Assembly (NCBI RefSeq): GCF_017599345.1
Contig: NZ_JAGFVL010000002.1
Coordinates: 1-32,241 of the forward strand
Reading direction: 5' to 3'
From: Gracilibacillus suaedae
Lineage (GTDB): Bacteria; Bacillota; Bacilli; Bacillales; Amphibacillaceae
DNA: 32,241 nt
The position numbers and the translations under genes are program-made. A model generated the notes under the pieces. It was given only the letters and a program-made list of their open reading frames with translations, was not told the DNA's origin and searched no databases. Below, piece after piece: positions 2,285-18,407 of this stretch; position 1 is the first letter of the stretch, and each line of letters starts with the position of its first letter.

Positions 2285-2312
2285 TTAATTAAAAATGGGG
2301 AGGTAAGACAGG

Positions 2313-3860: not shown

Positions 3861-3866
3861 AATGTG

Positions 3867-3898
3867 CTACTCCTCCTCTTCTAGCTGAGGGGGAGTAG
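3867..3898 (+). terminator. Hairpin after the binding-protein gene, probable partial terminator
   Basis: A 12-base-pair stem (CTACTCCTCCTC at 3867-3878 with GAGGGGGAGTAG at 3887-3898, one G-T pair) and an eight-base loop. The tract after it, AGTTATTTTA, is only weakly T-rich, so it may act as a partial terminator or as a 3' stabiliser that keeps transporter mRNA higher than the downstream regulator mRNA. A TATAAT at 3924-3929 could give the regulator its own promoter, but its -35 is poor. Confidence 0.65.
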
Positions 3899-3968
3899 AG
3901 TTATTTTAAAGATAGAAGTTTCATATAATGAAGAGAAATAAGCTCGGACATAGAAAGCGGGTGGGTTC

Positions 3969-6233
3969 ATGTCAAAGTTTCTCCCGGTTAAAATACAGAG
4001 GATACTCAGAAAAAATCTTTCTAATACACAAGTAAGGTTGCTGCTAATCTTAATGGTGCCTATTATTTTTATTATACTAACGGTAGGATTTTCTTCTTAT
4101 CATACTTCCAAGGACATATTACAACAAGAATTAAATGAACCGCAGCACCAAATGCTAAAAATAAACATGAATTATATTGATGAATATTTAATCGAATCCG
4201 ATCAAATCGCTGTTAAATTAGCATTAGATAATAATGTATATCGTTTTTTAATGAACCAATCACAAAACTCCTATGAAAATATTAAGGAGATTTATGATAA
4301 GCTAGCTACCATTACAAAAAATTCCTCATTTATTCAAAGTATTTATATTTATAATGTGAACAGTGATAGCTTTGTTGCCATTCCGCAAGGCTTCAGCTCT
4401 AGCAGTACAACTTTTAACGATGCAGAGTGGACTAGTGTGATTGATGAATTTAATGCTGATACAGCAAGAATTGTTAAATATCGTAATTTGCCAGAAGGTG
4501 CGAAGTATAAAGGATCCAATATTTCCTTATTTCGTAAGATAAATTTGCAGGGGGAAACAATGGGGATTGTTGCGATTAACCTTAATCAGCGAGAATTGTT
4601 TTCCAGTTTAAGATCATCTATTGAGCCACCATCTAATAGCATGCAATTTATTTTAGATCAAAATAATACGATTCTACATACAACTAAAAATCATACGTTT
4701 GATATAGAAACTGTATCGTATGTTAATGAAGAGGTGAGCAAAGGAAATTTAAGTGATATTACGTATAATGATAAGATATTACTTGCTAATCAAATGGAAT
4801 CGGAATTCACCGGATGGAAATATGTGTCTGTTGTATCGCAGGAGAGTATACTGGCTAAGTCAAAAACAGTACGTGATGTAGTTTTTACCGTATCTTTAAT
4901 TGCACTTATCATTGGCGCCATCGCTATATTCTTTATCAATTCTGTTGAATTAAAACCTATAAGACGAATGAAAGAACTGTTTTCAGTTGATGATGACCCT
5001 CTGTATAGACGAGATTTACTTCATTTAGAAGATATCATAGATGACTTGGTCAGTGATCATGCGCAATTATCCCAATTAATAAAAAAAGTGAAGTATGAAG
5101 CGAAATCAAAATTTTTATATGACATATATATTGGCAGATTAACAAACAGAACCGAGCAGAAAGAAAAGTGGCAAGCTTATTTTAAAGAATGGCAAGAAGA
5201 TAATATTCAATTATTAGTTGTATCGATCGATAATTATCCTTCTTGGAAAGAAAGTGTAGCTGGTAATTATCGTTCCGTGGTCAAGTCGGGGATGGCAAAT
5301 ATTCTTACTGAGGTATTATCGACTCATTTTGCCGTAGAGACGGTTGATATTGGCAATGATAAGATGATTATCATTATCCAGCATTTAGAAGGAAAAGTCG
5401 ACGTCATAAACCATTTAAAGATAGCGCTTACACACATAAAGAACATCTTAGGATTCTCTGTTTCCATTGGACTCAATCAGACAGGTGTTCTGTTTCAAGA
5501 GCTAAAGAATGCTATGAATGAAGCGGAGGAGGCACTGCAATACCGTCTGTTTGATGGGTATGGAAATATTTATACAAAGGTTGATCAAATTCAAGAAGAT
5601 AAAGAAACAAATATCGAAAAAATGGACTGTCTAGTGAAATCCATTACACTCGAAAATCCCATGCAATCGATTGATGATGTGACTACATTATTTCAGTTAT
5701 TTTATAAAAGTAATATTAGTCCAGAGCTAGCCTTTTATTTTATTGAACAAGTAAGAAAAGTTATTTTCACCGAAAACAAAAATATTGCACATGCTACTTT
5801 CCGTACTGCAGAAGAAATTCGCACTATGAGTCTAGAAGATGTTGCTAACTTATTTAAGGAAAGAATCTCAGAAAGAATTGAAAATATTAAGAAACTAAAT
5901 GATTCGAAAAGATATGTTATGTGTAGAAAAATGATTCAGTATATGAATGTACATTTAGGTGAACCGATCGGTATTCCAGAAATAGCCGAATCTGTTGGTG
6001 TTAGTGTAAGTCTTGCTAGTCAGTGGTTTAAAGAGGAGATGGATGATACTATTTATGGTTACTTTACCAAACTGAGAATGGAGCGTGCGCAAGAGTTATT
6101 AACTAAAACAGATAAGAGAATAGCGGATATTGCATTAGAGGTTGGTTATCAGCATGAAAATAGTTTTATACGAAAGTTCCGAGAATATAAAGAGATGACT
6201 CCAGGTAAATATAGAAAGTTAAATGCAGAATGA
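3969..6233 (+). CDS. Membrane-anchored AraC-family transcriptional regulator (YtdP type)
   Basis: One-component sensor that probably activates this operon when its outer domain senses the sugar or the loaded binding protein (inference). Of 754 residues, about 24-44 and 302-324 are membrane segments; between them lies a Cache-like extracytoplasmic domain of about 255 residues. The cytoplasmic middle region shows a degenerate GGDEF-like/YesN linker fold, and residues of about 655-754 form the AraC double helix-turn-helix, with PIGIPEIAESVGVSVSLASQ and the C-terminal ALEVGYQHENSFIRKFREYKEMTPGKYR signature split by the family spacing. This layout and length match B. subtilis YtdP (about 770 residues), which also sits beside an lpl/ytc-type importer. 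No kinase or receiver domain is present. Confidence 0.88.
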   Translation: MSKFLPVKIQRILRKNLSNTQVRLLLILMVPIIFIILTVGFSSYHTSKDILQQELNEPQHQMLKINMNYIDEYLIESDQIAVKLALDNNVYRFLMNQSQNSYENIKEIYDKLATITKNSSFIQSIYIYNVNSDSFVAIPQGFSSSSTTFNDAEWTSVIDEFNADTARIVKYRNLPEGAKYKGSNISLFRKINLQGETMGIVAINLNQRELFSSLRSSIEPPSNSMQFILDQNNTILHTTKNHTFDIETVSYVNEEVSKGNLSDITYNDKILLANQMESEFTGWKYVSVVSQESILAKSKTVRDVVFTVSLIALIIGAIAIFFINSVELKPIRRMKELFSVDDDPLYRRDLLHLEDIIDDLVSDHAQLSQLIKKVKYEAKSKFLYDIYIGRLTNRTEQKEKWQAYFKEWQEDNIQLLVVSIDNYPSWKESVAGNYRSVVKSGMANILTEVLSTHFAVETVDIGNDKMIIIIQHLEGKVDVINHLKIALTHIKNILGFSVSIGLNQTGVLFQELKNAMNEAEEALQYRLFDGYGNIYTKVDQIQEDKETNIEKMDCLVKSITLENPMQSIDDVTTLFQLFYKSNISPELAFYFIEQVRKVIFTENKNIAHATFRTAEEIRTMSLEDVANLFKERISERIENIKKLNDSKRYVMCRKMIQYMNVHLGEPIGIPEIAESVGVSVSLASQWFKEEMDDTIYGYFTKLRMERAQELLTKTDKRIADIALEVGYQHENSFIRKFREYKEMTPGKYRKLNAE

Positions 6234-6261
6234 CTAGCATATTAATAAGGAGGTAACGGAT

Positions 6262-8316
6262 ATGGACAGGAAAAGTGTTGTGCAAAAACATAATCCCAAA
6301 ATTCATCAAATAGAATCCTTATCACCATTATCGATTGGGAATAGCGAGTTTGGCTTTAGTGTTGATTTTACTGGTTTACAAACATTTCCCCAACTATATG
6401 AAACACCTTTAGGAACTCAGTCAAACTGGGGATGGCATTATAGTAGAGGGAAAGATTTATATAACGAAAGGGATATAGAATACCAACTGTTTGAGCATTA
6501 CGATCGAGAGGTTCCTTATCCTATGAAGCTAGGCAATAAAGAAGAGGCTTACCATTGGTTAAGACAAAACCCTCATCGAGTTCAGTTAGGGCAAATTTCT
6601 TTTCGATTTTTAGATGAAGATCAAAATGAAGTGGATGTAGCGGCTGTTACAGATATTAACCAAGAGCTAGATCTTTGGTCAGGAATCATCACCAGTCGAT
6701 ATGTTGTAGAGGATCAAGAGGTGGTCGTCAAAACAGTCTGTGATCCAACTTCTGATTCAATCGGTGTTCATATATCGTCTGCCTTATTAACAACTAGGAA
6801 GCTACAAATCGTTCAATCCTTCCCATCGCCCGATGTTAGTCATAATAGTTGGGCAAAAGCAACTAACTTAAATTGGGATCAACCTGAAAGGCGTCAAACT
6901 GTTGAAATCGATAATAACGATGATGTCGTTCTTCTAAAACGAGTATTGGATGAGGATAGTTATTATGTCCGATGGGAGAAAAATAATGCGAGTTTTTTGC
7001 AACGAAGTGCGTATCAATATCAATTAATTCCACCTAGTGATCGAAGTGAATACAGCTTTACTGTCACATTCAGCCCGAATAAAATTTCAGAAGTGAATTC
7101 AGTAACAAAAATGATCAAGGCTTCTCAGCAATATTGGGAAAATTTTTGGCAACAGGGCGCTTTTGTTACTTTTGAGGGAAGTACCGATACAAGAGCAGAT
7201 GAATTAGAACGTCGAATTATTTTATCTCAGTATTTAACTGCCATTCACAGTAGTGGAGCAATTCCTCCGCAGGAAACAGGACTGATGTACAATAGTTGGT
7301 TTGGTAAAGCCCACCTGGAAATGCATTGGTGGCACAGTGCTCATTTTCCACTATGGGGAAGAGCAGACAAATTAAACAAAAGCTTGCAATGGTACGAAGC
7401 TATTTTACCAATCGCACAAGAAATAGCCCTTCAACAAGGGTATCAAGGTGCAAGATGGCCTAAAATGGTAGGAATAGATGGTAAGCAAAGTCCATCGCCT
7501 GTAGCTCCAGGACTTATTTGGCAACAGCCACACCCAATCATGTTAGCAGAATTAATCTATCGTGATGATAAATCCTTAGCAGTACTGAATCAATATAAAG
7601 CGGTAGTTTACGAATCAGCAGATTTCATGGCTGACTTTGCAAGTTGGAATGATAAGGAAGGAGTTTATGTTTTAGGACCACCTCTTATTCCAGCACAAGA
7701 ATGTCACCGAATGGAGGATTCTAAGAACCCTCCGTATGAACTTGAATATTGGAAATATGGACTGGAAACAGCAATAAACTGGGCGAAAAGATTAGGGACT
7801 CCCCCTAATGAAAAATGGATACATGTTGCCGATCATTTAAAACAACCTCGAGAAAAAGATGGCGTTTATCTAGCACATGAGAATTGCGACAATACCTTTA
7901 CCGAGAAAAAACATGATCATCCTTCAATGGTGGCGGCATTTGGTATTTTACCAGGGAGATTGATAGATAAGGTAACAATGAAAAAAACTTTATTAAAGGT
8001 GAAAAACGATTGGCAATGGGATACTGCCTGGGGGTGGGATTTCCCGATGTGTGCCATGACAGCTACACGGCTAGGGGAGGCAGAACTTGCTATCGACTTT
8101 TTATTAATGGATGCCGTGAAAAACACGCATTTAGTTAATGGACATAACTATCAACGACCAGGTCTGACAGCATACTTGCCTGGGAATGGCGGATTGTTAA
8201 TTGCTATTGCGATGATGATAGCAGGATGGGATGGTCATAATGGTGAAATTTATCCGGGATTCCCTAAAAACGGCAAGTGGAATGTTCAGGCGGAAGGTTT
8301 TCAAGTCTACATTTAG
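6262..8316 (+). CDS. Putative six-hairpin glycosidase of unknown specificity
   Basis: A cytoplasmic protein of 684 residues with no signal peptide. I recognise the general plan of clan GH-L/GH-M-like enzymes: an N-terminal beta-sandwich of about 270 residues, then an alpha-helical toroid rich in Trp and His. Striking blocks are PPQETGLMYNSWFGKAHLEMHWWHSAHF (in part, residues about 335-362), GARWPKMVG, GLIWQQPHPIML, DNTFTEKKHDHPSM and DTAWGWDFPMCAMTA. Acidic residues in QETG, HLEMHWW and DTAWGWD are candidates for catalysis. Proteins with these blocks are usually annotated as hypothetical or GH65-like; I cannot assign a characterised CAZy family. AAGGAGG precedes the start. It is cotranscribed with a GH95 enzyme 23 bases downstream, so it likely acts on the same imported oligosaccharide. 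Confidence 0.7.
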   Translation: MDRKSVVQKHNPKIHQIESLSPLSIGNSEFGFSVDFTGLQTFPQLYETPLGTQSNWGWHYSRGKDLYNERDIEYQLFEHYDREVPYPMKLGNKEEAYHWLRQNPHRVQLGQISFRFLDEDQNEVDVAAVTDINQELDLWSGIITSRYVVEDQEVVVKTVCDPTSDSIGVHISSALLTTRKLQIVQSFPSPDVSHNSWAKATNLNWDQPERRQTVEIDNNDDVVLLKRVLDEDSYYVRWEKNNASFLQRSAYQYQLIPPSDRSEYSFTVTFSPNKISEVNSVTKMIKASQQYWENFWQQGAFVTFEGSTDTRADELERRIILSQYLTAIHSSGAIPPQETGLMYNSWFGKAHLEMHWWHSAHFPLWGRADKLNKSLQWYEAILPIAQEIALQQGYQGARWPKMVGIDGKQSPSPVAPGLIWQQPHPIMLAELIYRDDKSLAVLNQYKAVVYESADFMADFASWNDKEGVYVLGPPLIPAQECHRMEDSKNPPYELEYWKYGLETAINWAKRLGTPPNEKWIHVADHLKQPREKDGVYLAHENCDNTFTEKKHDHPSMVAAFGILPGRLIDKVTMKKTLLKVKNDWQWDTAWGWDFPMCAMTATRLGEAELAIDFLLMDAVKNTHLVNGHNYQRPGLTAYLPGNGGLLIAIAMMIAGWDGHNGEIYPGFPKNGKWNVQAEGFQVYI

Positions 8317-8339
8317 TGTCGGTCAAAGGAGGGGATAGT

Positions 8340-10733
8340 TTGTTTCATAATGTGCCTGATCGAAATAAGCTTGTCTTACAATATCCTGCTTCATGGTGGA
8401 GAAACTTGTGGCGTGAGGCCTTGCCAGCAGGAAACGGTGAACTAGGGGCAGCGGTATATGGATCGATCAAAAAAGAGACCATTTTAATCAATCACTCCCA
8501 ATTATGGCATATGGGTGTAAAAGGAGAATTACCTGACGTTAGTCACACTTTAACAGAGACTCGAGCTTTGATGAAGGAAGGAGAATTTCAAAAAGCAAAT
8601 TGGCATTTAACAAATGAAATAAAGAAACAAGGCTATTATTCTAAGTTAGCATGTCCGTTACCACTTGTAGATTTTCAACTGGAGATGCCGTGTGACAAAG
8701 GATTTAGTCATTATAGGAGAGGCATTAACATGGAGACAGGTGAAGTCCGTGTTACATGGTCCGAACGTGATACAACGTTTACGAGAGATCTGTTTGTTTC
8801 TCGTTCTGACAATTTGATTGTTTACCAAGTTAGCTCTAATAAAGCTAATGCAATTGATGCAGTATTAAATTTTTCCTTACATCCGACTAATTCACCAAAT
8901 ATGAAGGAAAGACACAATGAATTAGCTGATACAGTGGAATTGTATACAGATGACAATTATCTATTCTATAAAGTTACGAATGAGGATGATACAGAGTTTG
9001 GGGCAGTGGCTAGAGTAATAGCAGAGGATGGGGAGGTGATCACAGATCAAGGAAAATTACGTTGTGCGAAAGTTGATAGTCTATTAGTACTGATAAAAGT
9101 CTTTGTGCAATCGAGTAGCTCATTACAATGGCCAGTATTAAAAGATGAGCTAGCTAATGTGACTGTAACTTATCAGCAACTATTAGACAATCACGTACAA
9201 ATTTATCAGCCGCTGTATTTTTCATCCACGTTACAACTTACAGATGATCAAGAGGAATGGTCAAATGAAGTGTTACTTTTAGATACCTATAGTGGGGAAG
9301 AAGCTACGGCAAGGCTCTATGAGAAATTATGGTCGTTTGGTCGATACTTATTTATTTCAGGTACTAAAGTAGGTGGTCAACCCTTTTCGATGTATGGATT
9401 GTGGCATGGAGATTACCACTTAATGTGGAGTCATCGGATGGCTAATGAGAATATTCAGATGATGTACTGGCATACTTCAGTAGGTGGTTTGTCAGAATTC
9501 AACCTTGCTTTCATGGATTATTATCAATCTTTGATGGATGATTTTCGTGATAATGCGAAAAAGTTATTTGGCTGTCGAGGCATCTATATACCTGCAGGGA
9601 CAACGCCAGGCATTGGGAAACCTAATCAATTGGTACCTGTTATTATGAATTGGACTGCTGCTGCTGGATGGTTAGCGCAGCATTTTTATCAATATTATCA
9701 ATTCAATAGAGATGAGGAATATTTAAAGCAGAAAGCATTACCTTTTATGAAAGAAATAGCGGATTTTTATCAGGATTTCTTAAAAGTAAGAGCGGATGGC
9801 TATTATCAGTATTATCCTTCCGTATCACCAGAGAATACTCCTGTAAATTTCATGCCTGAAAGTAGTGAGCCAGTTGCCCATCCAATGCCAACAGCAGTGA
9901 ATGCTACGATGGACTTTGCGGTGATGAAAGAGCTATTAACTAATCTGATAGAAGGTAGTTTGATTGTTTCGATGTATCAACAGGAACGACCGGTTTGGCA
10001 GAAAATGCTTGAAAAAATTCCGCCTTATCAGGTGAACCAAGATGGAACAATCAAGGAATGGATGAGTCATCAATTTGAAGACAATCATGAACATCGCCAT
10101 CTTTCCCATATTTATCCGATTTTTCCTGGACGGGAATTAGTAAAAGAAAAAGAAGGACAGCTATTCGAAGCATTTCGAAGAGCGGTTCAACAAAGGAAAT
10201 TAGGAGCACAAACAAGCTGGTCCTTTGCTCATATGGCAAGTATTTATGCGAGGTTACAAGATGCCGAAAGTGCACATACTTGCCTCGAGCACCTTTCAAG
10301 ATCCTGTTTATTAAATAACTTTTATACAGTCCATAATGATTGGCGTAATATGGGGTTGACGATGGAAGTCGACTATGCGCCAGTACAAATGGATGCTAAT
10401 TTAGGTATCGTAAACGCCATTCAGGAAATGTTGATCTATGTGTCGCCAACAATGGTGAAGCTTTTGCCAGCTTTACCCGATGATTGGAAATCAGGGAAAG
10501 TGGATACATTTCACTTCTGTACGGGTACTATAAGCTTTCGTTGGGATTTATTAAAAGGTACATTTTCTACCGTCTTAAAAGCAGAGCATGAAACAACTAT
10601 TACATTAGGGTTACCTTCTTGCCTAAAATATGAATGGGAAGGAGACGGAAAAATCTCAACATCTGAGTTAGGAAAATCATATTATCAGATACAGTTGTCT
10701 GCACAACAAAGTTTGCGTTTCTTTTCTAAATAG
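8340..10733 (+). CDS. GH95-family glycosidase (alpha-L-fucosidase or alpha-L-galactosidase type)
   Basis: Intracellular inverting exo-glycosidase, 797 residues, no signal peptide. The start is chosen as TTG at 8340 because AAAGGAGGGG lies five bases upstream; the alternative ATG at 8277 would overlap the previous gene by 40 bases and has no ribosome site. The N-terminal block WWRNLWREALPAGNGELGAA is the GH95 hallmark. In the helical barrel, NEN (369-371) matches the Asn pair, EW (573) the acid region, HRHLSH the following motif, and PVQMDANLG (Asp 685) the base region of characterised GH95 enzymes. The usual PPW segment is replaced by GDYHLMW, so it is a divergent member and substrate is uncertain: fucose, galactose or a related L-sugar. 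Downstream of the unknown glycosidase and upstream of a YesL gene. Confidence 0.82.
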   Translation: MFHNVPDRNKLVLQYPASWWRNLWREALPAGNGELGAAVYGSIKKETILINHSQLWHMGVKGELPDVSHTLTETRALMKEGEFQKANWHLTNEIKKQGYYSKLACPLPLVDFQLEMPCDKGFSHYRRGINMETGEVRVTWSERDTTFTRDLFVSRSDNLIVYQVSSNKANAIDAVLNFSLHPTNSPNMKERHNELADTVELYTDDNYLFYKVTNEDDTEFGAVARVIAEDGEVITDQGKLRCAKVDSLLVLIKVFVQSSSSLQWPVLKDELANVTVTYQQLLDNHVQIYQPLYFSSTLQLTDDQEEWSNEVLLLDTYSGEEATARLYEKLWSFGRYLFISGTKVGGQPFSMYGLWHGDYHLMWSHRMANENIQMMYWHTSVGGLSEFNLAFMDYYQSLMDDFRDNAKKLFGCRGIYIPAGTTPGIGKPNQLVPVIMNWTAAAGWLAQHFYQYYQFNRDEEYLKQKALPFMKEIADFYQDFLKVRADGYYQYYPSVSPENTPVNFMPESSEPVAHPMPTAVNATMDFAVMKELLTNLIEGSLIVSMYQQERPVWQKMLEKIPPYQVNQDGTIKEWMSHQFEDNHEHRHLSHIYPIFPGRELVKEKEGQLFEAFRRAVQQRKLGAQTSWSFAHMASIYARLQDAESAHTCLEHLSRSCLLNNFYTVHNDWRNMGLTMEVDYAPVQMDANLGIVNAIQEMLIYVSPTMVKLLPALPDDWKSGKVDTFHFCTGTISFRWDLLKGTFSTVLKAEHETTITLGLPSCLKYEWEGDGKISTSELGKSYYQIQLSAQQSLRFFSK

Positions 10734-10746
10734 AAAGGTGATGAAC

Positions 10747-11436
10747 ATGCAAAATTCAGGGATAATGGGTAGATTTTATGTGATTGCTGATTGGATCTAT
10801 AAATTTTCGCTTGCTAATATTATTTGGACGGTGTCTAATATACCAATTTTCTTTATTGCGTTGAATTTGTTAATGGCAGATGAGATAGGGGTGATAGTAG
10901 TATTATTTGGGCTACTAATAATGTTATCACCTTTCGTGTTCTTCCCATCTACTATTGCATTATTTTCGGTTGTACATCAATTTATTAAAAAGGAAGATGT
11001 CAAGCTCTTAAGTGATTTTTGGCGATATTACAGAGGAAGTTATAAGAAGAGCATGAAAATAGGCGTAATATCTACAGTTTTTTGGGCTGTTTTGTTGCTT
11101 GATTTTTTCTATGTAATGGAAACAGGGAACATTACTTTATCTTATGTCTTTATTGTCCTTGGTTTTTTTGCGCTTATTTATAATTTACATGTACTCTCAG
11201 GCGCGGTAACGATCGAAAGCAGAGTGCGCCAGTTATTAAAGCAGGTAGGAATTATCATGTTCGGACATCCGCTATTGTCGATGTCACTAGGAATGCTTAG
11301 TTTAACCTTTGTGTATGTCATGACACAATGGCTATCCTTTCTCATTCCATTCTTTTCTGGTTCTATATTAGTGTTTTTAGCATTGCTTGTTTTTATAAAG
11401 ATTCATACAAGTTCGATTAAACTAGAGAAGCACTGA
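10747..11436 (+). CDS. YesL (DUF624) family membrane protein
   Basis: Integral membrane protein of about 229 residues with five or more hydrophobic segments (NIIWTVSNIPIFFIALNLLM, the segments near residues 50-75, 105-150 and 180-220). The opening IMGRFYVIADWIYKFSLANIIW matches the YesL/DUF624 family, which in Bacilli is often found with carbohydrate importers and pectin-use genes; its molecular role is unknown. I prefer ATG 10747 because AAAGGTGA (10735-10742 region) is then correctly spaced; GTG 10738 and ATG 10741 are alternatives. It is the last gene of the operon, 13 bases after the GH95 gene, and its stop lies inside the terminator stem at 11426-11455. Confidence 0.82.
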   Translation: MQNSGIMGRFYVIADWIYKFSLANIIWTVSNIPIFFIALNLLMADEIGVIVVLFGLLIMLSPFVFFPSTIALFSVVHQFIKKEDVKLLSDFWRYYRGSYKKSMKIGVISTVFWAVLLLDFFYVMETGNITLSYVFIVLGFFALIYNLHVLSGAVTIESRVRQLLKQVGIIMFGHPLLSMSLGMLSLTFVYVMTQWLSFLIPFFSGSILVFLALLVFIKIHTSSIKLEKH

Positions 11437-11455
11437 CTATAAGGTCAGTGCTTCT
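11426..11455. terminator. Bidirectional terminator shared by two converging genes
   Basis: A perfect 12-base-pair stem (AGAAGCACTGAC at 11426-11437 with GTCAGTGCTTCT at 11444-11455) and a six-base loop. The + strand YesL stop (11434-11436) lies in the left arm and the - strand ABC-F stop (11445-11447) lies in the right arm, so both coding regions end within the structure. T-richness after the stem is modest on either strand. Confidence 0.8.
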
Positions 11456-13016
11456 TTGATAATCGTTGCTTTTCATTCAACAATTGTTGGAATTCTTTTT
11501 CAAGTGCTTTTGATGGTTCGATACTTAACCTGCTTAAAACATCTGTTATTTTTGTCTCAATGATCAGCAATTGCTCTTCATGGTCATCTTTAACAGGTGC
11601 CTGTTCCCGATTTTTATACTGTTGCAAATTTCCATCGAAGTAAGTAACCTGCTGTTCTTCGATAGTGATCAATTTTGTTGCTATTTTTTCAACGAATCGA
11701 CGATCATGAGAAACGAAAATGACGGTACCCTCGTATTCTGTAAGCAATTTTTCCAGTGCCTCCATTGCTTCTAAATCGAGAAAGTTGGTAGGTTCGTCTA
11801 AGACCAATGTATTGCTATTACTAAGGAAAAGCTTTGCAAGAGTTACTTTAACACGTTCGCCGCCACTTAAAACACCCACTTTCTTATGAACTTGATCGCG
11901 ATAAAAATGGAGTCTAGCAAGGACAGTTCGGATTAATGTTTCATTGTGAAACGAACTTTCTTGTACATTTTCCAAAATCGAAAGTTCAGGATCTAAAACC
12001 GATAAGTCTTGTTTAAAATAAGCAATTTTACAAGCGGAAGAAAGATGGACACCTTCTTCATCATGAAGAATTTTCCTGATTAAAGTTGTTTTACCAGTTC
12101 CGTTCGCTCCAATAATGGCGAGCTTATCACCGCCTTTTATAAGGAAATTGGCTTGTTTCCATAGCAGTTGATTGCCTGCTTTACCATTTAGATTCTCCAC
12201 CCGAATAAGTACCTTGCCAGACAATTTTTCTTGATTGGGTAAATCCATTTTAATCGGTGTTTCTTCGAAAGGTTTTTCTACTTTTTCAAGCTTTTCCAGT
12301 CGGGTTTCAATCGCTTTGGCTGTTTGTTGTAGTTTCTTTTGTTTTTTGGCAAAATAGGGTTTGGCCCCTGTTATTTTTGCTTCAGAAGCACTTGTGTTTT
12401 TCGGTTTCTGGGTAGCTCTTTCCGCTTTTTCTGATTTTAGTGTTAAAGCTCTTTCTAGTTGCTGCTTCTTGGCTTGATATTTTTCATATTCCTGTTGATG
12501 CTGAAGAAGGACCTGTTCTTTTTGGTCTTTGAATTGTTGGTAGTTACCTTTATATTCATGTAACATCCTCTGATCGATTTCCCATATTTTCGTACAAGCT
12601 GCGTCTAAAAAAGCACGGTCGTGTGAGACGATAACATAAGCTCCTTGCCAGTGTTTTAACGTATTTTCTACCCATTCGATATGGTTTGTGTCTAAGTGGG
12701 TAGTCGGTTCATCGGCTAATAAGATACTACTTTGATTAGAAAAAGCTCTTTGGATATAGTCTTGGGTAACTTCCCCACCACTTTTATAACCATCAGCTGC
12801 TTTTAATTGAGGCAGGAGATCAACTGTCCCGTAGTGTGTAACCGCTCCTTTCTCAGGTGTCCATTCCCCAGCTAGTGTGTGCAATAAGGTTGTTTTGCCA
12901 GTCCCGTTTTTTCCAACAAGGCCAATTCGGTCGCCTTCGAATATTTCCAAAACATCAACCTCTAATAGCGTTGTTGCTTCCACAGAGATCATAAGATTCT
13001 TAGCTTGTAGTAACAT
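11445..13016 (-). CDS. ABC-F ribosome protection protein, Vga type (antibiotic resistance)
   Basis: Cytoplasmic ABC-F ATPase of 523 residues that by family role binds the ribosome and displaces lincosamides, streptogramin A and pleuromutilins. There are two ATPase domains and no membrane segment. Domain 1: Walker A GKNGTGKT (35-42), signature KSGGE (78-82), Walker B ILLADEP (98-104, catalytic Glu 103). Domain 2: GANGTGKT (303-310), LSGGE (383-387), LVLDEP (404-409). Between them is a long basic coiled-coil linker containing ERATQKPKN and GAKPYFAKKQKKL. The unusual first signature KSGGEVTQ, the LLADEPTTHLD wording and the length match staphylococcal Vga(A) (522 residues) and Listeria Lmo0919 as I remember them. 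ATG 13016 is chosen: GGAGTG is seven bases upstream; the open frame reaches a TTG at 13049 but that region is leader. Actual resistance is inference. Confidence 0.88.
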   Translation of the reverse strand: MLLQAKNLMISVEATTLLEVDVLEIFEGDRIGLVGKNGTGKTTLLHTLAGEWTPEKGAVTHYGTVDLLPQLKAADGYKSGGEVTQDYIQRAFSNQSSILLADEPTTHLDTNHIEWVENTLKHWQGAYVIVSHDRAFLDAACTKIWEIDQRMLHEYKGNYQQFKDQKEQVLLQHQQEYEKYQAKKQQLERALTLKSEKAERATQKPKNTSASEAKITGAKPYFAKKQKKLQQTAKAIETRLEKLEKVEKPFEETPIKMDLPNQEKLSGKVLIRVENLNGKAGNQLLWKQANFLIKGGDKLAIIGANGTGKTTLIRKILHDEEGVHLSSACKIAYFKQDLSVLDPELSILENVQESSFHNETLIRTVLARLHFYRDQVHKKVGVLSGGERVKVTLAKLFLSNSNTLVLDEPTNFLDLEAMEALEKLLTEYEGTVIFVSHDRRFVEKIATKLITIEEQQVTYFDGNLQQYKNREQAPVKDDHEEQLLIIETKITDVLSRLSIEPSKALEKEFQQLLNEKQRLSKKH

Positions 13017-13042
13017 AACATTCACTCCATTTCTGTTCGGAG

Positions 13043-13081
13043 ACAACAAAAAGCCTCCTTATTCACATTCAGAATAGGAGG
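13043..13081 (-). terminator. Attenuator terminator in the leader of the Vga-type gene
   Basis: On the - strand, CCTCCTATTC (13081-13072) pairs with GAATAAGGAGG (13064-13054, one bulged base) and is followed by CTTTTTGTTG. It sits between the leader promoter and the gene start 27 bases further on, so it would stop transcription before the coding region unless opened. The 5' arm has an alternative partner upstream at 13159-13169. Confidence 0.8.
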
Positions 13082-13107
13082 TAATACCGTATGAAAGGCA
13101 AATATGT

Positions 13108-13135
13108 ATAAGGATATTGATGGAAGTATCCTTAT
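13108..13135 (-). promoter_or_regulatory. Perfect hairpin inside the attenuator leader
   Basis: ATAAGGATA (13135-13127 on the - strand) pairs with TATCCTTAT (13116-13108), nine base pairs and a ten-base loop. No T run follows it, so it is not a terminator. It sits between the antiterminator arm and the terminator and would bring these two segments together. Confidence 0.6.
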
Positions 13136-13158
13136 GTCTGAGCCGGTCAATGAGTATC

Positions 13159-13169
13159 AATCCTATCCT
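13159..13169 (-). promoter_or_regulatory. Candidate antiterminator arm in the ABC-F leader
   Basis: The RNA segment AGGATAGGATT can pair over 11 positions with AATCCTATTCT at 13247-13237 (which overlaps the stop of the three-codon upstream ORF), or over nine contiguous positions with CCTCCTATTCT at 13081-13071 (the 5' arm of the terminator), one G-U in each. It is thus a shared partner of two near-identical segments, the usual logic of a ribosome-controlled attenuator. Confidence 0.65.
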
Positions 13170-13245
13170 GAATATTCCGCATAAAGACATACGTATCCCG
13201 TGTGTGGAATGACGTTCTTTATGAAAATATTATGAGAGAATAGGA

Positions 13246-13257
13246 TTATAACTTCAT
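13246..13257 (-). CDS. Three-codon leader ORF (Met-Lys-Leu) upstream of the ABC-F gene
   Basis: ATG AAG TTA TAA, preceded ten bases upstream by GAAAGGGTGAG (13278-13268), a good ribosome site. It begins about 38 bases after the -10 box. Its stop codon is part of the first leader arm (13237-13247), so a ribosome stalled here by an antibiotic would cover that arm. Very short upstream ORFs are known in leaders of antibiotic-inducible ABC-F genes (for example the Listeria rli53-lmo0919 system); translation here is inference from the ribosome site and position. Confidence 0.55.
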   Translation of the reverse strand: MKL

Positions 13258-13294
13258 TGGCCCAAGGCTCACCCTTTCGTATTTAGTTAACCAA

Positions 13295-13323
13295 AGTTTA
13301 CAAAAATAGGGTGGAGAAGTCAA
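13295..13323 (-). promoter_or_regulatory. SigA promoter of the ABC-F leader transcript
   Basis: On the - strand TTGACT (13323-13318) and TAAACT (13300-13295) are 17 bases apart. Transcription would start near 13288, giving a leader of about 270 bases before ATG 13016. Confidence 0.75.
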
Positions 13324-13351
13324 TAGGTAACAGCTTGATTTAAAAATGATA

Positions 13352-13380
13352 TTGAAACAAATTAAAAATAGAATTATAAT
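13352..13380 (+). promoter_or_regulatory. SigA promoter of the two-component system operon
   Basis: TTGAAA (13352-13357) and TATAAT (13375-13380) with a 17-base spacer, 36 bases upstream of the histidine kinase start. It diverges from the ABC-F leader promoter with about 28 bases between the two -35 boxes. Confidence 0.75.
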
Positions 13381-13391
13381 TAGCGCAATCG

Positions 13392-13405
13392 ATAAAACGT
13401 TTTCA
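13392..13405 (-). promoter_or_regulatory. cre box (CcpA catabolite repression site)
   Basis: Read on the - strand it is TGAAAACGTTTTAT, which fits the cre consensus TGWAANCGNTNWCA at nearly all positions. It lies 12-25 bases downstream of the -10 box, at or just after the start of transcription and directly before the CGGAGG ribosome site, a position where CcpA would act as a roadblock. Confidence 0.7.
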
Positions 13406-13416
13406 CGGAGGACGAC

Positions 13417-15225
13417 ATGAAATTTTTTTTCCGTTCTTTACCAATTAGAAATAAAATATTTATCATTTTTGCAAGCGTTTATGTAGTTGTTATTACGATT
13501 GTTGGTGTAGTCATGTATCTGACTAACGTAAATGAAATGAGAAATCAGACCCAATCGATGTCTAAAGTGTTATCAACACAGTTCTCAAGGACAATTGATA
13601 TGTATTTTCAGGATATTAACCGTCTTTCATTAGCTATTTTTACAGATTCTTTGATACAAGATACACTCTCTGATTATGAAGAGCAACATATATTGTATAA
13701 TGATATCAACATTAGAAATAACATGTATCCAAGATTATTTAATCAAGTATATCCACGCTCAGATATCGAAGGAATCACCATTTATACCACGAATGGAACA
13801 CTTTTTGATTACCATCAGAGTGGAGATATGGAAGTAAGGTATCAAACAACTAAAGAAGTGTGGATGGATGACCTTGACCAGATCGATAAGGACACTTTCA
13901 TCTTACTCCCAGCTAGAGAGGAGACTCTTTTGGATGGTGAGAGAAAAGATGTGGTTTCATTAGTACGAAATATTTATGGAATTCCCCAAAGAGATAAAAT
14001 AGGAACAATGAAAATTGATATAAATGTAAACGTTTTCTACCAGCTGTTGGAGATGGAAAATGTTGAGGAATTAGAGGAGCATATGAGGATTTTTGTTTTA
14101 ACAGAAGAACAGTCTGTCATATTTGACCATAGAAAAGAGTTAATAGGTGAGCATGAGATAGGATTAGATTTACAGGATGTAACAGATGACAAGCCTGAGG
14201 ATGGCACATTGACATGGCAATCGAATTCATTTTTATATGCGAATGATCGATCTGATTTCACAAATTGGAATACGCTTATTTTGATTGATAATGAATTCAT
14301 TATATATGAACGGAATCAAATTCTCTCTTTTATTGGGATTAGTGGTTTTATTGCTATTTCTGTAATTGGTATTATATCATATCTTCTTTCTTACAATATT
14401 ACCAAGCCATTAACGGCACTGGTACAAAAGATGAGGAAGGTTGAAAGAGGTGATTTAACTGATCGGATGAGTCCAACTGCACATCCCGAAATGGATGTAC
14501 TCACAAGGGTCTATAACAGCATGTTAGATAGCATTAATAAGTTAATTACAGAAGTATATGAATCAAGTATTGCCGAAAAAAATGCTAAAATATCTGCTTT
14601 GCAATCACAAATAAATCCGCACTTTCTTTATAATACGCTAAATGTAATGAAATCGATTAGCCGCGTAAAAGGAGTCGAAGAAGTAGCAGAGATATCGGAG
14701 TCTCTATCGGACCTATTTAAATATAGCATGAAAGATTTGGATAAAACGGTAACGCTTAAGGAAGAAATCAATCACATTGATAATTATATGCGGATACAGC
14801 AGTACCGTTTCATAGATCGTTTCACTTTAAATAAGGAAATAGAGCTTGGAGTAAATAAAGCTTTAATTCCAAAGCTACTAATTCAGCCAATTGTTGAAAA
14901 TGCGGTTAATCATGGGTTGAGGGATATAAAAGCAGGGGGAATAATTACGCTAAGGGCTTATAAAAAAGAAAATAATGTGATCGTACGTGTAAAAGACAAT
15001 GGTGTTGGGATGAATGAGAATGTATTGATCAATGCAAGAAAGAAATTAAATCAAAACGTTATGGACAAAGAAACGGAAGGTATAGGTTTACGTAATATTT
15101 CTCAACGATTACGTTTAATCTATGGGTACCGCTATCAGATTGATATAGAAAGCAGGGAGAAACAAGGAACTATTGTCACCATTGTATTACCGTATCAAGA
15201 GCAATTGGAGGGGGGAACATCATGA
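13417..15225 (+). CDS. Sensor histidine kinase, YesM/LytS-like (HPK7)
   Basis: Membrane sensor kinase of 602 residues that should phosphorylate the response regulator encoded next. Membrane segments lie at about 13-36 and 302-326, bounding an extracytoplasmic Cache-like sensor of about 265 residues. A HAMP linker (about 326-378, starting TKPLTALVQKM) leads to a His_kinase domain with QSQINPHFLYNTLN, phospho-accepting His 402. The ATP-binding domain has N box NAVNHG (495-500), G1 DNGVGM (527-532) and G2 GIGLRN (555-560). This order is typical of YesM, which pairs with AraC-type response regulators to control sugar uptake genes. Its stop overlaps the regulator start by four bases (ATGA). The start has CGGAGGAC upstream, and a cre box abuts it. 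Confidence 0.93.
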   Translation: MKFFFRSLPIRNKIFIIFASVYVVVITIVGVVMYLTNVNEMRNQTQSMSKVLSTQFSRTIDMYFQDINRLSLAIFTDSLIQDTLSDYEEQHILYNDINIRNNMYPRLFNQVYPRSDIEGITIYTTNGTLFDYHQSGDMEVRYQTTKEVWMDDLDQIDKDTFILLPAREETLLDGERKDVVSLVRNIYGIPQRDKIGTMKIDINVNVFYQLLEMENVEELEEHMRIFVLTEEQSVIFDHRKELIGEHEIGLDLQDVTDDKPEDGTLTWQSNSFLYANDRSDFTNWNTLILIDNEFIIYERNQILSFIGISGFIAISVIGIISYLLSYNITKPLTALVQKMRKVERGDLTDRMSPTAHPEMDVLTRVYNSMLDSINKLITEVYESSIAEKNAKISALQSQINPHFLYNTLNVMKSISRVKGVEEVAEISESLSDLFKYSMKDLDKTVTLKEEINHIDNYMRIQQYRFIDRFTLNKEIELGVNKALIPKLLIQPIVENAVNHGLRDIKAGGIITLRAYKKENNVIVRVKDNGVGMNENVLINARKKLNQNVMDKETEGIGLRNISQRLRLIYGYRYQIDIESREKQGTIVTIVLPYQEQLEGGTS

Positions 15226-16703
15226 ATGTGTTTATCATTGAAGATGAATATTGGGCGCTTTTAGAATTACAAACATTATTAATAAGCTATCAATTACACC
15301 ATAATATCTATTTTTTTGATAATGGTGAGGATGCCCTTGATAAACTGTCAGAAATAACTCCGGATCTTGTTATAACGGATATTACGATGCCAGGAATAGA
15401 CGGTTTGCAGCTGGTGGAACAAATAAAACAATTTGATCATCGTATTGAATGTGTATTACTAACGGTACATGATACGTTTGAATACGCGAAGAAGGGAATT
15501 CAATTAGGTGTAGCAGAATATATTTTAAAGCCAATAAAAAAGAAAGCATTATTTAATACGATTGATCAAATGTTGGAGAAAATTCGACAGAATAAGCAAC
15601 TAGAAGCAGAAAAACAGCACTGGTCGATTAGTAAACTACTGTTTCAATCTATAAAGCAAAACAATAATAATGTTGAAAGCTTCGATAATCAACCTTTTTT
15701 ATTTGTATATATCCTACTAGGTAACTGGAAAGCACCAGTTTCTCAAATAAATGATATGGAAACAGAAGAAATCAATGATTTGTTTAGGGCAGATAAGCAA
15801 TGTTGGTTTCTTTCAATAGACGAACAAAGAAAGGTACTGTTAATACCAAGTGAAAATAACTTATATATGGAAACTACAGCCATTAATGAACTATATCAAT
15901 ATGTAAAACGCTTTGGTCAAGTGCATATTTGTACTTGTATAAAGAGTGATCAAACAAGTTTACATGAAGTTTATCAAGCGGTAGAGAAGCGCATGAACAA
16001 GGAGAAGTTATTCGGTGAGTCGACGTTTTTGAATCATTATCATCAACAGCATGAAAAAGATATTCAATCTTTGTGGGATACGGTAAGAATCATGGAAAGA
16101 AAGCTTCGAACTTATCAATTTGCGTTAATTCCAGAACAGATAAAAAAACTAATCGATAAAATCCAACAGAAAAAAATTCCGCAAAAACAATTATTTCGAT
16201 TTTTGGCCGACATGTATTATGCAATTATTTATAAGTTGCAACAATCGACCAGTAATGTAGTTAACATTGATAACATTGATGAGTATTTCGATCAATTGGA
16301 TGCTTTAGTTTTCTATGATCAATTAGAGAATTGGTTAGTAGATTTAATGAATCATATTTCAAGAGAGCTATCTCACAAAGAAATTGCACCCAAACATTTG
16401 ATTCCTAAGGTGAAGGAATGGGTTGAAGAAGCCTATTCCAATAATATTACTTTTCAACAATTTGCTGAAGAGCATCATGTTAGTTTGAGTTATTTATCGA
16501 GAGAATTTAAAGAACAGACCAACATGACCTTTTCCGAATATCTAACGAATGTTCGTATAAAAAAGGCGAAAGAACTATTTGATAGTGGAGTGAAAAAAAC
16601 AGTTGAAGTAGGGGCATTAGTTGGCTACAATGATCCGAAACATTTTAGATCTGTATTTAAGAAAATAACAGGGAAGACACCTAAAAGTTATAGAGAACAA
16701 TAA
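15222..16703 (+). CDS. Response regulator with AraC output domain, YesN-like
   Basis: DNA-binding partner of the upstream kinase, 493 residues. The receiver domain occupies about 1-120 with acidic pocket Glu 7/Asp 8, phospho-acceptor Asp 53 in ITDITMPG, and Lys 103 in ILKPIKK. A linker of about 260 residues follows, and the C-terminal 100 residues form an AraC double helix-turn-helix (FAEEHHVSLSYLSREFKE, then VGYNDPKHFRSVFKKITGKTPKSYR). It likely activates the importer promoter near 17015, which has a good -10 but a poor -35, a typical activator-dependent design (inference). Translational coupling through the ATGA overlap should give matched amounts of kinase and regulator. Confidence 0.93.
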   Translation: MNVFIIEDEYWALLELQTLLISYQLHHNIYFFDNGEDALDKLSEITPDLVITDITMPGIDGLQLVEQIKQFDHRIECVLLTVHDTFEYAKKGIQLGVAEYILKPIKKKALFNTIDQMLEKIRQNKQLEAEKQHWSISKLLFQSIKQNNNNVESFDNQPFLFVYILLGNWKAPVSQINDMETEEINDLFRADKQCWFLSIDEQRKVLLIPSENNLYMETTAINELYQYVKRFGQVHICTCIKSDQTSLHEVYQAVEKRMNKEKLFGESTFLNHYHQQHEKDIQSLWDTVRIMERKLRTYQFALIPEQIKKLIDKIQQKKIPQKQLFRFLADMYYAIIYKLQQSTSNVVNIDNIDEYFDQLDALVFYDQLENWLVDLMNHISRELSHKEIAPKHLIPKVKEWVEEAYSNNITFQQFAEEHHVSLSYLSREFKEQTNMTFSEYLTNVRIKKAKELFDSGVKKTVEVGALVGYNDPKHFRSVFKKITGKTPKSYREQ

Positions 16704-16760
16704 GAAAGGCTTAAAGTTTTCAGTGCTAGACATATCCATTTATATGTTCTCCAGGAACAA

Positions 16761-16930
16761 AAGTGCAAGTGCCCGATTAAATGAAAGTGCGACTAGGCCT
16801 CTAGCTTCACCAATCGGCAAGTCTTCTTTATCGCAGGGTGATTCGTGAAATCTCCTAGTTTTTGGGCGCTTCGGGATGCGGCTCATCACGCTCACATTAT
16901 CCGCATAGTCAAATTTTCTAATTTCCTAGA
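16761..16930 (-). repeat. Interspersed repeat B, diverged inverted copy
   Basis: Read on the - strand this segment follows copies 1 and 2 in order: a TAGGAAATTAGAAAATTT start, the AAACTAGGAGATTTCACGAATC block, and a final AATCGGGCACTTGCACTTT end. Identity is much lower than between the other two copies and the middle is degraded. It fills most of the gap between the response regulator and the importer, and no gene is seen there. Confidence 0.6.
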
Positions 16931-16934
16931 CTAT

Positions 16935-16974
16935 AAAAAAGGGGTGATTTTATCTAGTAAAAATCACCCCCTTT
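16935..16974. terminator. Bidirectional terminator after the two-component system genes
   Basis: GGGGTGATTTT (16941-16951) pairs perfectly with AAAATCACCCC (16960-16970); A residues precede and CTTT follows the stem. It separates the two-component operon and repeat B copy 3 from the importer promoter just downstream. Confidence 0.75.
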
Positions 16975-17003
16975 AATTGTTAAATGAATAGGTTTTTTAT
17001 TAA

Positions 17004-17020
17004 TGAAAGCGTTTATATAA
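17004..17020 (+). promoter_or_regulatory. cre box overlapping the -10 box of the importer promoter
   Basis: TGAAAGCGTTTATA (17004-17017) is a strong cre match and overlaps TATAAT (17015-17020). The sequence 17 bases upstream (GTTTTT) is a poor -35. This arrangement predicts CcpA repression on preferred sugars and dependence on an activator, most likely the YesN-like regulator encoded upstream. Confidence 0.75.
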
Positions 17021-17054
17021 TGAGGGTGTACTATAAAAACGAGGGGGTAAATAA

Positions 17055-18407
17055 ATGAATTGGTTTAGAAGAAACATGATCATTAGCTTTATGGCACTAT
17101 TACTATTATTACTAGCAGCATGTAGTGGAAATAACACTGACACAGACTCAAATGAGATGAGAAATAACGATGATCAAGAAAACACAGAAGAGTCTGCAGC
17201 AGAAAATTCTGAAACAACATTAACATTTTTAATTGATAATCAAACCGTAACAGATGGAATAGAAGCAGTAGCAGAAGAGGTTGAAGAGAAATTTAATATT
17301 ACAACTGAACTTGAACTACGGCCTGGCGGAACAGAAGGAGACAATATCGTCAAAACACGACTGGCTACTGGAGAGATGACTGATTTAATGTGGTATAATT
17401 CTGGCTCTTTATTTAAAGCATTAAATCCTGAAGAATATTTCTTGGATTTGTCAGGACAATCTTTCATGGATCGTATTGATGATACATTTAAAGAAACAGT
17501 AGCTGTCGGTGATGGAGTTTATGGCGTTCCGGGAGAAGCTAGTTCGGCAGGTGGATGGTTATATAACAAAAAAGTGTATGAAGAATTAGGATTAGAAGTG
17601 CCACATACATGGAATGAATTAATGGCTAATAATGACAAAATTAAAGAAGCAGGTAAAATACCAGTTATTGCATCATATAAAGATACTTGGACCTCTCAAT
17701 TAGTTTTATTAGGTGATTACTACAATGTTCACTCAGAAAATTCAGGTTTTGCACAACAATTTACAAATAATGAAGCAAAATTTGCGAGTACACCTAGTGC
17801 TTTAAGAGGTTTTGAAAAATTACAAGCATTACAAGAAGCCGGACATTATAATAATGAAGCATCTGCAACAGGCTATGAAGATGGTTTAGAGATGTTAGCG
17901 AATGGCGAGGCAGCACATTATCCAATGTTAACCTTTGCTCTAGCAGCAATAGCGGATACTTTCCCTGATAAAGTAGAGGACATTGGTTTCTTTGGTCAAC
18001 CAGGTGAAAATGCAGACGATCATGGTATGACTACATGGATGCCAGGGGGGATCTATGTGAACAAAGATTCAGAACATGTCGATGCTGCTAAAAAATGGTT
18101 AGAATATTTTATATCCGAGGAAGGCCAAGCAACATATATGTCGGTCATGAAAGCTAACGGACCTTATGTTCTGAAAGATGTAGAATTACCAGATGATGCA
18201 TATACAGCTGTAAAGGATATGACAACCTATATCGAAAGCGGAAACATTGCACCTGCATTAGAATTCTTATCTCCTTTGAAAGGACCGAATCTAGAGCAAA
18301 TCACTGTGGAAGTCGGTTTAGGTATGGTGTCAGCGGAAGAAGGGGCAGAGAAATACGATAGAGACGTTGAGCGACAAGCACAACAGTTAGATCTTGAAGG
18401 ATGGTAA
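17055..18407 (+). CDS. Extracellular sugar-binding lipoprotein (family 1)
   Basis: Receptor lipoprotein of the second importer, 450 residues. The signal peptide ends in the lipobox LLAAC at about residues 19-23, followed by an acidic Asn/Asp/Glu-rich tether to about residue 55. The mature part has the family-1 binding-protein fold, with typical blocks such as GVYGVPGEAS, GGWLYNKKVYEELGLEVPHTWNE and WMPGGIYVNKDSE (in part). Many exposed Trp and Tyr residues fit carbohydrate stacking. GAGGGGG precedes the start. It leads an operon with two permeases and a GH78 alpha-L-rhamnosidase, so a rhamnose-containing oligosaccharide or rhamnoside is the likely ligand (inference). Confidence 0.9.
   Translation: MNWFRRNMIISFMALLLLLLAACSGNNTDTDSNEMRNNDDQENTEESAAENSETTLTFLIDNQTVTDGIEAVAEEVEEKFNITTELELRPGGTEGDNIVKTRLATGEMTDLMWYNSGSLFKALNPEEYFLDLSGQSFMDRIDDTFKETVAVGDGVYGVPGEASSAGGWLYNKKVYEELGLEVPHTWNELMANNDKIKEAGKIPVIASYKDTWTSQLVLLGDYYNVHSENSGFAQQFTNNEAKFASTPSALRGFEKLQALQEAGHYNNEASATGYEDGLEMLANGEAAHYPMLTFALAAIADTFPDKVEDIGFFGQPGENADDHGMTTWMPGGIYVNKDSEHVDAAKKWLEYFISEEGQATYMSVMKANGPYVLKDVELPDDAYTAVKDMTTYIESGNIAPALEFLSPLKGPNLEQITVEVGLGMVSAEEGAEKYDRDVERQAQQLDLEGW

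Follow-up and report, generated by a model that had tools for sequence, protein, structure and literature searches.

The window (the whole stretch of DNA analysed here, 32,241 nt from Gracilibacillus suaedae) encodes on its minus strand a Vga-family ABC-F ribosomal protection protein, as the first-pass annotation of this DNA had supposed for the gene behind its proposed leader. The best solved chain for the protein is 7nhl, a lincosamide-streptogramin A resistance protein (634 bits), followed by 7nhn (Lmo0919, 367 bits), 8buu (277 bits) and 6ha8 (240 bits). We take these four chains to be Vga(A)LC, VgaL, VmlR2 and VmlR, respectively. Published work bears this out in part (PMC10201436 for VmlR2 and VmlR). 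The closest relative in a named genome, from Gracilibacillus lacisalsi, is 91% identical, and the CplR model is failed with 452 bits against a cut-off of 780. An in-frame TTG start upstream of the ATG at 13016 was dropped; in one homologous locus (L051) a stop interrupts that extension, as judged by eye. Every leader element named in the first-pass annotation is present on the minus strand between 13323 and 13016. The features are listed here, the gene first and the leader in the direction of transcription.

11445..13016, minus strand: gene for the Vga-family ABC-F ribosomal protection protein, 523 aa (NF000170, 754.1 bits against a cut-off of 725)
13295..13323, minus strand: putative promoter, TTGACT at 13323 and TAAACT at 13300-13295, 17 nt apart
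13269..13277, minus strand: SD-like AAAGGGTGA of the upstream ORF (uORF); its AGGGTG motif also occurs in relatives
13246..13257, minus strand: three-codon uORF ATG AAG TTA TAA (Met-Lys-Leu)
13237..13247, minus strand: arm 1, AATCCTATTCT, overlapping the uORF stop
13170..13236, minus strand: inner hairpin separating arms 1 and 2, part of the predicted window fold; z is below -1 in each of 55 non-redundant leaders
13159..13169, minus strand: arm 2, AGGATAGGATT, able to pair with arm 1 or with the terminator 5' arm
13254..13271, minus strand: predicted 5' strands of stem P0, TGAGCC (13271-13266) and CAATGA (13259-13254)
13139..13153, minus strand: predicted 3' strands of stem P0, TCATTG (13153-13148) and GGCTCA (13144-13139)
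13108..13135, minus strand: nine-pair hairpin ATAAGGATA/TATCCTTAT, predicted in the window fold
13047..13081, minus strand: predicted intrinsic terminator CCTCCTATTC / GAATAAGGAGG with one bulge, then CTTTTTG; 5' arm CCTCCTATTCT at 13081-13071, 3' arm AAGGAGG at 13060-13054
13025..13044, minus strand: predicted post-terminator anti-SD GTCTCC (13044-13039) and gene SD GGAG (13028-13025)

The promoter had been proposed in the first-pass annotation, and its two hexamers do lie 17 nt apart, but they match the consensus at only 9 of 12 positions and the region holds five sites of that quality against 2.9 in shuffled sequence, so that the match is poor evidence when taken alone. The 273-nt leader RNA has a minimum free energy of -83.3 kcal/mol, compared with -57.5 (sd 5.3) for 200 dinucleotide shuffles, none of which folds as well (z -4.87). 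Arm 2 pairs in both of the ways that had been claimed: with arm 1, once one base is added, at all 12 positions, two of the pairs being G-U, and with the terminator 5' arm at 9 of 12. A simple terminator scan of the leader called none, perhaps on account of the bulge. The NusG pause motif TTNTTT, reported for vmlR but not treated here as a defining trait of this attenuator type, does not occur in the leader (13288 to 13016, minus strand). Rfam gives no gathering-level match in the window, and its rli53 family (RF01481) finds nothing at E up to 1 in 12950-13420; the Listeria control (L142) does match that model.

Two pairings absent from the first-pass annotation are predicted in the window fold. 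The first, P0, joins the spacer between the SD and the ATG of the uORF to the bases just 3' of arm 2 (TGAGCC with GGCTCA, CAATGA with TCATTG), and therefore encloses the uORF within a stem. The second would hide the gene SD past the terminator: GTCTCC may pair with GGAG of that SD, or else with GGAGGC, the terminator 3' arm once it is freed.

Conservation of the layout and specificity of the pairings

Within the same family, 159 genomes were searched, and homologues of the gene came to light at 91 places in 88 of them. The layout sought upstream of them was ATG-NNN-NNN-TAA directly overlapping TAAT[CT][CT]T[AG]T within 600 nt, and it was found in 87 of the 91 loci. Among the remaining four, L065 and L074 have the layout further upstream (as L183 and L184), L133 sits at the end of a contig and L056 lacks a match. 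The tripeptide encoded by the uORF varies considerably over the 87 loci (MKY 43, MKL 16, MKN 6, MLN 6, MDN 4, MRN 2, MIN 2 and eight found once each). The three-codon frame had been credited with a good ribosome site; SD-like motif and frame are both there, but "good" is generous, since in 85 of the 87 loci the SD-to-ATG spacing is 13-16 nt, which is long for an SD. After five of the 87 leaders were left out of the alignment, a hairpin with a T-rich tail was called in all 82 leaders with a recognisable arm 2, at least five of these calls being plainly of a non-cognate hairpin (L077, L081, L083, L097 and L109).

Covariation among homologues had been put forward as a check on the three arms, and on this point the outcome is divided. 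RNAalifold, run on the 82 leaders, returned nine pairs, of which a single one shows double changes (G-C replaces A-U in 12 sequences), because the letters of the arms are nearly invariant. Column covariation being weak here, each helix was instead compared with the same helix after its partners had been exchanged between species, using 2000 permutations. Removal of 27 redundant sequences left 55 leaders; five of these had no accepted terminator, leaving 50, and two more were excluded from the anti-SD tests, leaving 48. Arm 1 and arm 2 gave z -4.2, with one permutation as good (n=55). No permutation equalled the true partners for P0 (z -10.5, n=55), arm 2 with the terminator 5' arm (z -8.2, n=50), the two terminator arms (z -12.2, n=50), the anti-SD with the gene SD (z -4.4, n=48) or the terminator 3' arm with the anti-SD (z -6.4, n=48). 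Redundancy was cut by identity only, and some shared ancestry stays in these z values. The pairing of arm 1 with arm 2 thus hardly varies, while the other helices vary and keep their pairing, and the swap tests support the proposed helices.

A probable ribosome-controlled switch

Folding of the leader with and without a ribosome on the uORF, the other check that had been suggested, agrees with the proposal for the window. When positions -18 to +16 relative to the uORF start were masked to represent the footprint, the full fold of the window changed from one with a 10-pair terminator and 12 pairs joining arms 1 and 2 to one that has no terminator and in which arm 2 forms 11 pairs with the terminator arm. 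The relatives behave less uniformly at equilibrium. One of the 55 leaders was dropped, and with the full terminator present and the footprint on, 17 of the remaining 54 switch (at least 7 pairs) and 35 keep the terminator. This argues against a pure equilibrium model and implies that in most relatives the switch would need kinetic, co-transcriptional folding. In folds of the nascent RNA, ended just before the terminator 3' arm, at least 6 pairs between arm 2 and the terminator arm are predicted in 3 of 50 leaders when the RNA is free and in all 50 with the footprint. Control masks of 35 nt gave this pairing in 4 of 50 leaders when laid on the inner hairpin and in 7 of 50 when laid past arm 2. 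When the mask was confined to the 26 nt preceding the start codon, 25 of 50 switched, and P0, beyond arm 1 alone, therefore carries much of the predicted effect. The modelled structures are mutually exclusive anti-antiterminator, antiterminator and terminator.

Very probably, then, this chromosomal Vga-family ABC-F gene is controlled by a transcription attenuator of the vga(A)/vmlR type that works through the ribosome. The three-arm stalling model of the first-pass annotation fits the anatomy, the comparative data and the folding tests, as well as what the accessible parts of the vmlR and cplR papers describe (PMC9226507, PMC10201436). For the start of transcription, the translation of the uORF, the stalling by drug and the read-through, we infer the following course. 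Without drug, ribosomes would complete the three-codon uORF and leave; arm 1 would bind arm 2, aided by P0 around the uORF, and the terminator would form because arm 2 is occupied by arm 1. A drug acting at the peptidyl-transferase centre would hold the ribosome on the uORF, where it would cover the P0 strand and most of arm 1, and the free arm 2 could then seize the emerging terminator 5' arm and let transcription enter the gene. In the read-through RNA the freed terminator 3' arm (GGAGGC) may bind GTCTCC and release the gene SD, adding a second, translational layer. By analogy with published relatives, lincosamides, pleuromutilins and streptogramin A are the candidate inducers.

This second layer raises the question of whether the leader acts mainly on translation, with the terminator-like hairpin and GTCTCC hiding the gene SD, stalling on the uORF freeing it and termination being of minor weight. 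Both pairings of the anti-SD pass the swap test, the gene ATG lies a few bases past the hairpin in L142, L157, L164, L187 and L188 (by eye), and a cplR leader with a mutated poly-U is still repressed by translational attenuation alone, according to the available text of PMC10201436. We nonetheless consider a mainly translational control unlikely for the window, where the T tract adjoins the hairpin and a separate SD for the gene lies 26 nt past it, with the ATG at 38 nt. That the uORF is untranslated and its ATG-NNN-NNN-TAA a coincidence within an ordinary protein- or metabolite-controlled attenuator is highly improbable: the long spacing from SD to ATG and the variation of codons 2 and 3 would suit it, but the start codon, the three-codon length and the TAA at the edge of arm 1 are kept in 87 of 91 loci while those two codons vary, and for vmlR the available text reports start-codon and SD mutants without induction and a 30S toeprint at the AUG (PMC9226507).

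The leader upstream of other resistance-type genes

The transcription attenuator favoured here for the window may have a considerably wider distribution. A strict pattern, AGGGTG-N(8-18)-ATG-NNNNNN-TAATCCT[AG]TT, was searched in whole genomes and occurs at 86 places in 80 of 159 genomes of the family and at 36 places in 34 of 398 genomes of a sample of the class; without its last T, it occurs at 29 places in 23 of 296 genomes of an order sample centred on G204. Five places are common to the family and class searches and one to the class and order searches, leaving 145 distinct places, of which 105 precede ABC-F genes, 40 precede genes for Cfr, Vat, Vgb or an MFS transporter and none precedes a gene of another family. 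In the family search the pattern precedes 80 ABC-F genes (78 assigned by coordinates against the homologue set, two by separate comparison), five Vgb-Vat pairs (L175-L179) and one LmrB-like transporter gene (L182). The class search gave 23 ABC-F genes, six MFS genes of one type (L145, L146, L147, L157, L164 and L190), one other MFS gene (L170), one LmrB-like gene (L173), three Vat genes (L165, L166 and L186), one Vgb gene (L168) and one Cfr gene (L169), and the order search seven ABC-F genes, 11 MFS genes of the L170 type, five Vat-first and five Vgb-first loci and one Cfr gene (L239). Gene names rest on NCBIfam for nine representatives and, for the others, on BLAST to those or on inspection by eye. 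Cfr (604 bits, cut-off 468) and Vat (338 and 351, cut-off 300) pass their models; the Vgb-like (389 and 465, cut-off 600) and LmrB-like proteins (480 and 327, cut-off 800) and the transporters of the L145 (160, cut-off 320) and L170 types (194, cut-off 475) fall below theirs. The LmrB-like proteins do pass the general DHA2 efflux model, and the transporters below cut-off are presumed to act in drug export.

Complementarity between arms 1 and 2 extends over 9 to 12 of 12 positions in 41 leaders before genes other than ABC-F, among them that of the plasmid locus L206. A combined set of non-ABC-F and further ABC-F loci, the latter including L187, L188, L214, L216, L223 and L236, held 48 loci before exclusions. 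L213, with no terminator called, was removed, as were L157, L169, L217 and L221, where the automatic call is non-cognate and the cognate hairpin can be read by eye (with a poor T tract in the Cfr locus L169); removal of duplicates, by rules that differ between the two tests, then left 36 rows for the swap test and 39 for nascent folding. The swap test gave z -5.8 for arm 2 with the terminator arm, -6.4 for P0 and -8.2 for the terminator, and in the nascent fold the arm 2 to terminator pairing is predicted in 6 of 39 rows free and in 38 of 39 with the footprint, L182 being the one that fails. These models suggest the same switch in leaders outside the ABC-F genes. Some genomes carry two leaders: before Vga and Vgb-Vat genes in G072, G076, G084, G085 and G087, before ABC-F and Vat genes in G405 and before ABC-F and LmrB-like genes in G466, the ABC-F frames of the last two being interrupted.

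The leader resembles a portable device for sensing drugs that act on the large ribosomal subunit. It is likely, in our judgement, that a single portable RNA sensor, composed of SD motif, three-codon uORF and three arms, serves across the Bacilli as the shared regulon switch of no fewer than five resistance functions unrelated to one another, namely target protection by ABC-F proteins, rRNA methylation by Cfr, acetylation by Vat, cleavage by Vgb and efflux by MFS transporters, and that it does so in some genomes at two loci. The alternative, that ABC-F, Cfr, Vat, Vgb and MFS genes acquired this leader by convergence, without common descent or function, appears doubtful; it concerns this wide reading and leaves the mechanism at the window aside. 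The stop codon, the anti-SD-like CCTCCT and the demands of a terminator do favour the same letters, CCTCCT/AGGAGG and TAA being generically constrained, and the arms are separated by about 24-56 nt in most leaders outside the ABC-F genes as opposed to at least 66 nt in most Vga leaders. Yet the pattern requires the SD motif, the start, the stop and TAATCCT[A/G]T all at once, and its reversed form has no match in the family, class and order searches. A looser pattern starting at GGGTG gave no new leader in 23 and 39 genomes, and the strict one no added place in 11 more; L197, a match to the looser pattern, has no arm 2 and was counted as chance.

Inspection by eye and by pattern of about 420-460 nt upstream found no leader at three of three mobile cfr loci (L209-L211) nor at five of six mobile vat/vgb loci (plasmid loci L203, L204, L205, L207 and L208), the sixth, the Paenibacillus plasmid vat-vgb locus L206, having one; hence, the leader is not general to those gene families. 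If the wide reading is true, seemingly unrelated resistance genes stand under one RNA switch, resistances to several drug classes may be co-induced, and searches with the pattern could reveal inducible resistance genes that have gone unrecognised. The leader also suggests an RNA family outside the coverage of Rfam rli53.

Relation to known attenuators

Leaders of this kind have been described before. The B. subtilis vmlR leader is described, in the available text, as having a uORF of three codons (MIN), an anti-antiterminator, an antiterminator, a terminator and a last hairpin that hides the SD; mutation of the SD or of the start codon abolishes induction, and the variants MDN and MDK are functional (PMC9226507). 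Mutants of the cplR leader likewise show that induction depends on the uORF, and the same source, as far as its text is available, gives uORF consensus sequences of MR[I/M] for CplR, MK[L/Q] (computed) for VmlR2 and MAGN for LsaA (PMC10201436). In the accessible parts of other papers, attenuation of vgaA is named (PMC12421871), lmo0919 and vmlR are reviewed among attenuators (PMC5418344) and HflXr has a 14-codon uORF instead (PMC6310831); the accessible part of the uORF4u paper holds nothing further on these genes (PMC10219788). Among the known loci fetched, the uORF runs into TAATCCTA or TAATCCTGTATT in eight, and the layout is absent upstream of L143 (an Msr-type gene) and L144.

L137, L138, L139 and L141: plasmid vga(A) leaders, uORF MIN
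L135: vga(C) leader, uORF MKY
L136: Staphylococcus saprophyticus plasmid Vga leader, uORF MRN
L140: Jeotgalibaca plasmid Vga leader, uORF MKY
L142: Listeria vga(G)/lmo0919-like leader, uORF MKF

The first-pass annotation had not seen this exact leader described, and we likewise found its sequence in no account, but the published VmlR2 consensus MK[L/Q] (PMC10201436, in its available text) and the leaders of vga(A), vga(C) and lmo0919, all of the same layout, make that statement only partly right. The window is therefore a chromosomal case of an attenuator kind already known. What appears to be new, judging from the sequence searches, is the one layout before ABC-F, Cfr, Vat, Vgb and MFS genes, and a literature search by titles and abstract openings of the top-ranked papers, with most subscription journals outside its coverage, returned no account of a leader common to these families. 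The window leader indicates, moreover, that environmental Bacilli carry in their chromosomes, as a conserved device, the attenuator known from vga genes of mobile staphylococcal elements.

The nearest of the known systems are the leaders of vga(A) and vga(C), which share with the window the SD motif, the three-codon uORF, arm 1 (TAATCCTATT), the terminator arm and a Vga ABC-F gene, with GGATAGGA or GAATAGGA as the counterpart of its arm 2; the window differs in being chromosomal, in its codons (MKL) and in a protein about 56-59% identical. The Listeria lmo0919/vgaL leader also has a three-codon uORF (MKF), TAATCCTGTATT, an arm 2 and a terminator-like hairpin, but its gene SD lies in the 3' arm of that hairpin and the proteins are about 39% identical. 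Rfam, applied to four loci, matches rli53 (RF01481) in this Listeria control with 211.6 bits and gives only sub-threshold microRNA matches for L138. The three-codon uORF is shared with vmlR and VmlR2, and the three-arm layout and SD-hiding hairpin with vmlR, by the published description as far as available (PMC9226507, PMC10201436); the window leader differs from vmlR in having no TTNTTT pause motif, and the VmlR and VmlR2 chains are further from its protein than 7nhl. Finally, the CplR leader of Clostridioides has a three-codon uORF as well and joins transcription and translation attenuation, but its gene SD lies within the terminator hairpin, according to the available text of PMC10201436, and the window protein falls outside the CplR model.

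Gene families preceded by the leader

The window's type of leader, with its three-codon upstream ORF (uORF), two pairing arms and terminator, is found not only before ABC-F genes, but also before genes of other families, namely those encoding Cfr, Vat, Vgb and MFS transporters. The compared loci in which it precedes such genes are:

L145-L147, L157, L164-L166, L168-L170, L173, L175-L179, L182, L186, L190 and L206
22 of the 29 further loci L212-L240

Upstream of cfr in the plasmid loci L209-L211, the leader is absent in all three cases; by eye, these regions share a longer ORF of a different kind, starting MLTVFRI or MITVFKM. In several loci (L177, L178, L179, L180, L185 and L187), the Vgb or ABC-F frames behind the leader appear shortened or interrupted.

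The arrangement of the leader itself also varies. Before the Vgb-Vat pairs (L175-L179) and the LmrB-like transporter (L182), inspection by eye reveals additional arm-like and terminator-like copies after the first set, some 60-330 nt past the uORF, an arrangement that resembles a tandem pair of attenuators. The distance from terminator to gene is about 150-345 nt in L063, L064, L068, L070, L077 and L113, far greater than in the window, and an additional layer of control may lie in between.

Surroundings of the ABC-F gene

Among the nine neighbours scanned (window 449-18407), none resembled a resistance gene. The ABC-F gene is accompanied by transport permease, GH95 hydrolase and DUF624 genes, and the divergent neighbours encode a histidine kinase, an AraC-type response regulator and a solute-binding protein. 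The DUF624 gene (10738-11436) is convergent with the ABC-F gene and is faced by a repeat, identified by eye, that may terminate both genes:

11427-11454, end of the ABC-F gene: inverted repeat GAAGCACTGAC/GTCAGTGCTTC

Gene start and ribosome sites

In L187, L188, L157, L164 and the Listeria lmo0919-like L142, the gene ATG lies only a few bases 3' of the terminator hairpin, so that the AGGAGG-type 3' arm may double as the Shine-Dalgarno (SD) sequence of the gene, coupling transcriptional and translational control. A possible alternative start for the window's ABC-F gene after terminator opening is provided by codons that are not conserved in the compared locus L051:

13049-13044 on the minus strand, just past the AAGGAGG arm: a pair of TTG codons that share the reading frame of the ATG at 13016

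Regarding the uORF, its SD core lies 13-16 nt from the ATG in 85 of the 87 homologous loci with a three-codon uORF whose stop overlaps arm 1, a spacing that exceeds the usual 5-9 nt.
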